Source of the DNA: Fibrobacter sp. UWB4
GTDB taxonomy: Bacteria; Fibrobacterota; Fibrobacteria; Fibrobacterales; Fibrobacteraceae
DNA: 64,000 bases
Direction: 5' to 3'
Assembly: GCF_002210345.1 (NCBI RefSeq)
Contig: NZ_MWQI01000005.1
Location: forward strand, 1-64,000
In this document: one piece after another, positions 21,505-23,400 of the stretch
Numbering within the stretch: the stretch's first letter is position 1
Layout: every line of letters starts with the position of its first letter
The notes under the pieces: model-generated
What the model saw: the letters and a program-made list of their open reading frames with translations, nothing else
Told to the model about the DNA's origin: nothing
The model's database searches: none
Program-made: the position numbers and the translations under genes

Positions 21505-21549
21505 ATAAATATAGCTAATGAATTTTTATGAACAAGTGAGGTGAGTGAA

Positions 21550-22848
21550 ATGGTTTCAAATCTATTCCTTCAGCTAGCACACATTGAATTACTGATGTCT
21601 TACCCGGTCAAGGACATTTTGACCTTGGTCAAACGGGATTCAAGGTTCAATGTAAAACTCCTAAATGATTTGTACTTTGAAGATTCATACGTAGATGAAA
21701 GCGCTTACCGTTTCATAATGGACAACATCGTTGCGTGGTTGTATGAACGCGGCGAAAACCCTGATGATTTCATTGAACGCATTGTGAAGCGTTGCGCTGC
21801 ATTTGAAGCTGTTCCTGCTCGTAGCGTTCTTCGCTCCTACTTGCCGTTCGTCTCTTCGTTCTACTCTGCCGAAGATGCTCGCGAACTCTGCTTGGAAATT
21901 ATCCCAAAACGCTATCCGTTCCTTACGAAGGCAAGCATCCTTCGTAACGAAGTTATTGAAGGTAATCGCAGGGTGGACTTCACGTTCCAGTTCGAGACTC
22001 CGGGTGTGCTTGCGGCAAACCCGATGCGCTGGATCCGCAGCATGATCAACATCGGACCTCTCCTCTTGAACACGCCTGCATACGAACACATTAGCTATCT
22101 CGCATCTCAGACGTCGTTTATCGAAGCTCTTGAAAATAGAGTTCCCGCCGAAATGAAGGAAGACGGTGGTGTTTATGTTAAGGGCGAACTCGTGGGCCGC
22201 CACGTGACATTCGATGATTGCATCAAGGAACACAACCTCGAATGGAAGAACGACGTGGAACGTAGCATCGGTTGTGTGCGTTCTCTGGTGGACATCCGCG
22301 ACCCGAAGACCGGTGCTCTCCTCATCGAAAAGGATTGCTACTACGGTGCTCCGGCTTACATTCTTGAGTTTAATTTCAAGGCAAACGTAAATGCAACAGA
22401 ACCGTTCCTCAAGCTCATGAGTTCTGTCGTGAAGCAGGAATTTGCGGCTTGGGCGCCGATCCAGAAGGCTCACGAACAGCTCCTTGATGCGATGAACGAT
22501 TCCGTCACGATCGTGTACTACAAGAGTGATGACTCGATCTCCGTGAACAGCAAGCATCTCATGCGCAATGTCCCGGCTCGAATCCTTCGCAACTTGCTCC
22601 GCGAGTACACTGTGACCGGTCGTGAAGAATACGAAAACCGCGAATTCAAGCGCGATCCGGCTATTTGCATGGACCCGCTTCGCCCGAACTTCGAGAGCAG
22701 GTTGAACCGCGTCATTGCCCATATCAACGGCTCTGATGATCCGGAACATCCGAGTGAAGGTGTCAAGAAGTATTTCGAAATTGAACGTCATCGTCGTGGT
22801 GGATTCCGTTTCGTTCCGAAATGCAAGATTGTCTTCAGGGAAGAATAA
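21550..22848 (+). CDS. Conserved hypothetical protein with a C-terminal winged-helix-like segment (432 aa)
   Basis: I cannot name this protein. It has no signal peptide or transmembrane segment and is evenly charged. The last 120 residues (SVNSKHLMRNVPARILRNLL, EYTVTGREEYENREFKRD, LRPNFESRLNRVIAHI) resemble the C-terminal wHTH-like domain of some bacterial sensory regulators, which share a P-A-R-I-L-R, G-R-x-E-x-E-x-R-E-F-K-R, N-F-E-x-R pattern. The N-terminal 250 residues are unassigned. It could be a DNA-binding regulator. I prefer ATG 21550 over GTG 21541 because GAGGTG sits six bases before the ATG. A candidate small RNA follows. Confidence 0.75.
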   Translation: MVSNLFLQLAHIELLMSYPVKDILTLVKRDSRFNVKLLNDLYFEDSYVDESAYRFIMDNIVAWLYERGENPDDFIERIVKRCAAFEAVPARSVLRSYLPFVSSFYSAEDARELCLEIIPKRYPFLTKASILRNEVIEGNRRVDFTFQFETPGVLAANPMRWIRSMINIGPLLLNTPAYEHISYLASQTSFIEALENRVPAEMKEDGGVYVKGELVGRHVTFDDCIKEHNLEWKNDVERSIGCVRSLVDIRDPKTGALLIEKDCYYGAPAYILEFNFKANVNATEPFLKLMSSVVKQEFAAWAPIQKAHEQLLDAMNDSVTIVYYKSDDSISVNSKHLMRNVPARILRNLLREYTVTGREEYENREFKRDPAICMDPLRPNFESRLNRVIAHINGSDDPEHPSEGVKKYFEIERHRRGGFRFVPKCKIVFREE

Positions 22849-22966
22849 TTTTACTTTGTTCTGAATTTACGAATGTAATCGTAATGTAAGGACTGTAAAT
22901 TTTATTGAGTGAAGAAATAAGAAAAAGGAAAGAACCGACCCCTGATCATTTTGGTATATTTAGAGC

Positions 22967-23103
22967 GTTGAGAAAGGTTAGAAAGGTAAATCCTGAAACG
23001 ACTTTATCATTGCTCCCCTCCTGATAGGTTCAAGGTTCTGGAAACCACTCAATATTTTCTCCTTCTTAGGAAAGGGTTCTTTTAGAGCCCTTTCTCTTTT
23101 TTT
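22967..23103 (+). ncRNA. Candidate trans-acting small RNA with an exposed C-rich (anti-Shine-Dalgarno) loop
   Basis: This stand-alone unit of about 135 bases lies between two convergent genes. It has a TATATT box (22955-22960) seven bases before the presumed start and a strong terminator at the end. Predicted pairing: GTTGAG (22967-22972) with CTCAAT (23048-23053), and GGTT (22976-22979) with AACC (23043-23046). Inside this, a hairpin TATCA/TGATA (23005-23009, 23022-23026) displays the 12-base loop TTGCTCCCCTCC, which is complementary to GGAGG/GGGGAG ribosome-binding sites. C-rich loops of this kind are the targeting element of several sRNAs. It does not match SRP RNA, tmRNA, RNase P or 6S RNA by eye. 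The structure was drawn by hand. Confidence 0.45.
23070..23103 (+). terminator. Rho-independent terminator (end of candidate sRNA)
   Basis: GAAAGGGTTCT (23070-23080) pairs with AGAGCCCTTTC (23084-23094) around a TTT loop, followed by TCTTTTTTTT. It is an 11-bp stem with one G-T pair and an excellent T-tract. Confidence 0.9.
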
Positions 23104-23136
23104 ATGCACTTTCATCCTGGCGCAAGCGCCAACCTT

Positions 23137-23290: not shown

Positions 23291-23320
23291 AAAAAGACGA
23301 TGTAAATACATCGTCTTTTT
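23291..23320 (-). terminator. Bidirectional terminator of thrC
   Basis: AAAAAGACGATGTA (23291-23304) and TACATCGTCTTTTT (23307-23320) form a long perfect stem with T-runs on either strand. It closes thrC on the minus strand and can also stop plus-strand readthrough. Confidence 0.88.
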
Positions 23321-23339: not shown

Positions 23340-23400
23340 ATTAGCGGCGGCGGGCGGCCATTGGCTAATGCTTGCGCATTAGCGACGGCGTGCTGCCATT
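23340..23400 (-). repeat. Duplicated thrC C-terminal codons separated by a small hairpin
   Basis: On the minus strand thrC ends ATGGCAGCACGCCGTCGC-TAA (Met-Ala-Ala-Arg-Arg-Arg-stop). After the hairpin ATGCGCAAGCAT, a second in-frame-style block ATGGCCGCCCGCCGCCGC-TAA encodes the same six residues and stop. The two blocks differ at synonymous positions, so the duplication is old or maintained. Confidence 0.65.

Follow-up and report, generated by a model that had tools for sequence, protein, structure and literature searches.

What lies between the two convergent genes that end on either side of this interval in Fibrobacter sp. UWB4, and what could its product do? The window analysed here (64,000 nt, positions 1 to 64,000 of contig NZ_MWQI01000005.1) carries at this place a gene on the plus strand ending at 22848 and thrC on the minus strand ending at 23379. 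Between them, covariance models R1 and R2 position a small RNA gene of about 135 nt on the plus strand (22966-23103), with matches in this genome (G000) at 22966-23098 for R1 (E = 3e-24) and at 22969-23055 for R2 (E = 2e-18). The gene is preceded by TATATT (22955-22960, plus strand), a presumed -10 box found at the same spot in 24 of 24 Fibrobacter loci, from which transcription would start near 22966-22967. Farther upstream, AATAAG (22916-22921, plus strand) keeps a fixed spacing to this box: TAAG or TAAT stands exactly at -37 from TATATT in 21 of the 24 loci, and the spaced pattern of upstream element and TATATT occurs once in the window versus 0.04 times expected. This element presumably has a function, possibly as an activator site or a UP-like element; TAAG elements resembling it also occur in other genera. 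The 3' end is formed by an intrinsic terminator (23069-23103, plus strand) with a 12-pair stem and a T tract. Indeed, at the sequence level the RNA has a transcription unit of its own, with promoter box and terminator, and the TATATT box, closing stem, C-rich loop (predicted to be unpaired), terminator and convergent flanks listed by the first-pass annotation are each present in the window. Between thrC and the RNA gene, a perfect 14-nt inverted repeat (AAAAAGACGATGTA/TACATCGTCTTTTT, 23291-23320) is likely a two-way terminator.

The predicted fold is a rod. Its closing stem P1 has a 5' strand at 22967-22979 (GUUGAG, GGUU) that pairs with 23043-23053 in two blocks (22967-22972 with 23048-23053, and 22976-22979 with 23043-23046). 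An internal loop follows, with GGUAAAU on the 5' side (22985-22991) and UUC on the 3' side (23036-23038), then the short, covarying helix P2 (CCU, 22992-22994, with AGG, 23033-23035) and P3, whose 5' strand at 23000-23009 (GACU, UAUCA) pairs with 23022-23030. At the tip, UAUCA/UGAUA closes a C-rich apical loop of 12 nt, UUGCUCCCCUCC (23010-23021), which we propose as a first pairing element. A second candidate pairing element, the pyrimidine stretch UAUUUUCUCCUUCUUAGGAA (23053-23072, hereafter module 2), is confined to the genus Fibrobacter. All these parts lie on the plus strand.

Minimum free energy was dropped as proof of this structure, since the folding-energy z-score is near 0 to -1 (-0.05 for 22940-23120 and -1.0 for the transcript alone), and covariation was used instead. 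When 55 copies from the whole family were aligned to R2, 83.7% of cells held standard pairs versus 74.4 +/- 0.8 in shuffles, and 107 cells were changed on both sides, that is, compensatory, versus 49 +/- 6. The covariation score over these copies reached 0.324, as compared with 0.194 +/- 0.010 for shuffles and at most 0.126 for slid structures; sliding the structure by 1-3 columns left at most 68 compensatory cells. A model-free alignment agrees (0.287 versus 0.194). Compensatory changes affect five of the five modelled pairs of P1, six pairs of P3 are changed on both sides while 91.6% of its cells are paired, and the terminator stem also covaries within the genus Fibrobacter. The first-pass annotation had staked its reading on the conservation of loop and stems in relatives; over the homologues both are conserved, and the helices covary. 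In several species, an alternative fold pairs part of the loop, which counts against the pairing role proposed for it.

These changes bear directly on the idea that the stem-loop arose by chance, or that the interval is a short protein-coding gene read from the reverse strand. The reverse complement does offer two pairs of Shine-Dalgarno (SD) site and start codon (AAGAAGGAG..TTG/ATG and AGGAGG..ATG), but the helices carry compensatory changes, the reverse-strand frames hit different early stops between species, and promoter box and T tract stand on the plus strand in all loci, which leaves this idea a negligible probability. A reverse-strand peptide was likewise discarded, as its reading frames are not conserved between species. 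Judged by sequence comparison, we are nearly certain that an RNA gene is established here.

How far does this gene extend? A blastn search with the whole unit, run on 25 Fibrobacter genomes and 16 more distant ones, retrieved it from 24 of the former, the sole exception being a genome that is 62% complete, and from none of the latter. The 24 loci, oriented via CTCCTTCTTAGGAA and all previously located by whole-unit blastn, share TATATT, the stems, CTCCTTCTTAGGAA, the terminator and a pyrimidine loop that contains CCCTC without exception. R1 and then the rod-only R2 were run on 168 genomes of the phylum and together detected the RNA in 108 of 111 Fibrobacteraceae genomes, namely in every one of the 31 that represent ten further genera and in 77 of 80 from Fibrobacter, most of these lying outside the training sets, whose sequences the models match by construction. 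The three family genomes in which it was missed are 62, 71 and 81% complete. Outside the Fibrobacteraceae, these 168 genomes gave nothing convincing, the sole R2 match having E = 0.04. The RNA is almost always present once per genome (twice in genus g16), and its length ranges from 75 to 135 nt across the family, with about 75 nt in g10. A possible paralogue, a one-mismatch match to the loop at G000:C7:158076, was taken as chance because a similar fold and flanking similarity are absent.

The claim that the RNA is not a common housekeeping RNA held up: no Rfam 15 family exceeded its gathering threshold, 6S RNA was not found in the family, and the SRP RNA lies elsewhere. Low-threshold Rfam matches to ctRNA_pT181 and the L20 leader, far below gathering scores, were set aside as chance. 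The bacterial small SRP RNA model (RF00169) has no match at the RNA gene, and the SRP RNA of the genome is encoded separately (G000:C2:325998-326094). A diverged, 6S-like housekeeping RNA would be family-wide and single-copy, as this RNA is, and the 6S covariance model (RF00013) finds nothing convincing in the family that would already fill the role. However, the RNA is too short (75-135 nt, and about 75 nt in g10, versus about 180 nt) and is devoid of a 6S-type bubble, the SRP RNA is accounted for, and no Rfam model matches; identity with 6S RNA was thus rejected for lack of a model match and on length, and a diverged 6S-like RNA appears highly improbable. A search for Hfq (PF17209) in 41 genomes of the phylum, 25 of them from Fibrobacter, gave no match, with a profile that found the protein in 5 of 14 control genomes. 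The class of Hfq-dependent sRNAs presupposes Hfq in the organism, and by this search the RNA falls outside it.

Which parts of the RNA are held constant? The apical loop carries the motif GCUCCCCUCC in 46 of 55 copies, GCTCCCCTCC in 46 and CCCC in 53, and its predicted mean unpaired probability is 0.88 in the genus and 0.96 in the window copy, whereas the whole RNA averages 0.42. Conservation and predicted openness together mark it as a conserved accessible pairing region. Two further features had been overlooked in the first-pass annotation, namely the conserved internal loop (22985-22991/23036-23038), kept as GGTAAATCC in 46 of the 55 family-wide copies, and the second invariant pyrimidine element (23053-23072). 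The 14-nt core of this module 2, CTCCTTCTTAGGAA, does not vary among the 24 Fibrobacter loci, and the predicted unpaired probability of the module is 0.85 on average and 0.48 in the window copy. Module 2 is absent outside the genus; at that place, an ordinary terminator stands in most of the other genera. A pseudoknot between GAAGG and module 2 was considered and rejected, its 5' side being variable while module 2 is constant.

Comparison of the genomes shows the layout of the unit, its predicted fold and its conservation. For its role, we give about an even chance to a free-standing gene of the Fibrobacteraceae for a trans-acting regulatory sRNA that would pair with SD regions, and our best reading is a putative new Hfq-independent sRNA family. 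With the RNA folded into the rod, its C-rich apical loop would stay single-stranded and would pair with the purine-rich SD regions of a restricted group of mRNAs, the partners of the loop being start regions complementary to CUCCCCUCC. In Fibrobacter, the unpaired UAUUUUCUCCUUCUU stretch ahead of the terminator could likewise pair with SD regions. Ribosome binding on the targets would thereby be blocked, with no need for Hfq.

Each of the two pyrimidine elements is complementary to purine runs of the SD type. The complement of module 2 partly matches real start regions (e.g. AAGAAGGAGAAAAAAAATG, AAGAAGGAGATAAATATG), and such complements resemble genuine start regions, with AAGAAGGAG ahead of ATG. 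The strict tests on the loop were negative. Apart from the RNA gene itself, each genome contains only one to three sites with GGAGGGGAGC, which complements the loop core exactly; these sites are inside or antisense to open frames, none being a conserved translation start. GAGGGG before ATG showed no enrichment over a reversed-pattern control, and the duplex energy of the loop with start regions of the window, based on naive gene calls, was just slightly better than for shuffled loops (-8.8 versus -8.0 +/- 0.6 kcal/mol). No conserved mRNA targets were found with strict loop complements; weaker or species-specific targets may exist. It had also been proposed that many genes of the window use GGAGG or GAGG sites, through which the RNA could regulate broadly. 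With naive gene calls, GGAGG stands upstream of only 3 of 44 genes and GAGGG of 2 of 44, so that few window genes have such sites, while loop complements are rare and off conserved starts. Thus, of the earlier interpretation, the orphan structured RNA gene with a conserved C-rich loop predicted to be unpaired stands, and broad regulation through common SD sites is so far unsupported; because the strict loop tests came out negative, that claim is unproven. The trans-acting, SD-pairing reading itself is plausible, with the negative target searches and the near-random pairing of window start regions counting against it.

The main rival is a protein-binding RNA, in which the GGUAAAU/UUC internal loop and the C-rich loop would form the recognition surface of one protein, so that the RNA would sequester or guide this protein instead of pairing with mRNAs. 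Several observations are consistent with it: internal and apical loop show equal conservation (46 of 55 copies each), P3 has kept its sequence and not just its pairing, the RNA is nearly universal in the Fibrobacteraceae at one per genome, and a conserved mRNA target was not seen. Sequence conservation of P3 and of the internal loop exceeds the need of a scaffold, and we count this against the trans-acting sRNA. However, the candidate partner encoded next to the RNA is absent from several genera that retain the RNA, and tandem copies keep the internal loop and alter the C-rich loop, which fits variable targets. On balance, we consider a protein-binding role somewhat unlikely. A near-universal ribonucleoprotein that uses both loops and acts globally on translation without Hfq, its point of action being, e.g., the initiating ribosome or a translation protein, is quite unlikely. 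The tandem second copies lie at L112:2234-2372, L114:2234-2371 and L127:1968-2052 (minus strand); they retain the GGUAAAUCC internal loop, and their C-rich loop is changed to CUCCCCUAUUG or UUCCCCUUCU.

The neighbouring genes raise a last alternative, that of a cis-acting leader or 3'-UTR element. The conserved upstream neighbour, orf435 (21541-22848, plus strand, 435 aa, function unassigned), lies outside the RNA and precedes it in the same orientation in each of the 24 Fibrobacter loci; records sharing this gene are Fibrobacter succinogenes-like metagenome genomes and F. intestinalis ATCC 43854. It has no Pfam or NCBIfam match and, with a confident AlphaFold model (pLDDT 88), no PDB fold match with E < 0.001, on which ground it was discarded as RNA-binding partner. 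As a target it was also discarded, its GAGG site pairing like any SD site and being devoid of extended conserved complementarity. The C-terminal region of the protein is nearly invariant (HLMRNVPARIL..TGREEYENREFKRD).

A role in cis would agree with this constant neighbourhood and with one locus of g17 (L106:1990-2126), where the stop codon of orf435 is immediately followed by the RNA and TATATT is missing, the sister locus L109 retaining a spacer. It would also agree with g10, where the downstream gene would be the one concerned: a small predicted secreted-protein gene (about 110-140 aa) follows the RNA in 8 of 11 loci examined (L119, L120, L121, L122, L126, L127, L138 and L145). Against this, the RNA in Fibrobacter comes with a conserved promoter box and a terminator of its own, its downstream neighbour changes between genomes and is convergent in the window, and the RNA persists in genera that lack orf435. 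Indeed, orf435 stands beside it in g11, g12, g13, g16 and g17 and is absent in g9, g10, g14 and g15; without orf435, the RNA adjoins mutL in g9, g14 and g15, and in g10 it is found elsewhere, away from mutL, behind TTGACA and TATACT boxes. Since the RNA is retained next to changing downstream genes, a cis leader is disfavoured; a cis role seems less probable than one in trans, and we judge it decidedly unlikely.

Riboregulation in the Fibrobacterota appears almost unstudied, and in the openly licensed literature searched we found no study of sRNAs in Fibrobacter or its phylum. A near-universal structured RNA in cellulose-degrading gut bacteria apparently without Hfq would be a tractable entry point, which would reveal which genes these bacteria control by RNA and how sRNAs directed at SD sites function in the absence of Hfq.

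Returning to the trans-acting sRNA, three known systems offer comparisons. Yfr1 of cyanobacteria exposes the ultraconserved single-stranded pyrimidine motif ACUCCUCACAC between two stem-loops (PMC2190773). Like Yfr1, the Fibrobacteraceae RNA is a small orphan RNA kept lineage-wide, with two stem elements including the terminator and a conserved pyrimidine motif, and its mode of action may be Yfr1-like. Unlike Yfr1, with which it shares no sequence or structural homology, it displays its motif at the tip of a long rod, in the apical loop, and this rod also contains a conserved internal loop; read directly, the window RNA does not have ACUCCUCACAC between two stem-loops. The SmelA075 and SmelA099 sRNAs of Rhizobiales present the anti-SD motif CCUCCUCCC in hairpin loops (PMC3927594), and the display of such a motif in a hairpin loop is shared; those RNAs consist of three to four hairpins whose stems vary, whereas the present one is a single rod in which stem sequence and internal loop are conserved. 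In RsaE of Staphylococcus aureus, a UCCC motif is proposed to pair with mRNAs and to inhibit formation of the initiation complex (PMC9266662). A UCCC-type motif proposed for target mRNA pairing is common to both, but no homology was seen, and the targetome of RsaE has been studied experimentally. By this analogy, Yfr1, the CCUCCUCCC-loop sRNAs and RsaE would be functional analogues of the Fibrobacteraceae RNA.
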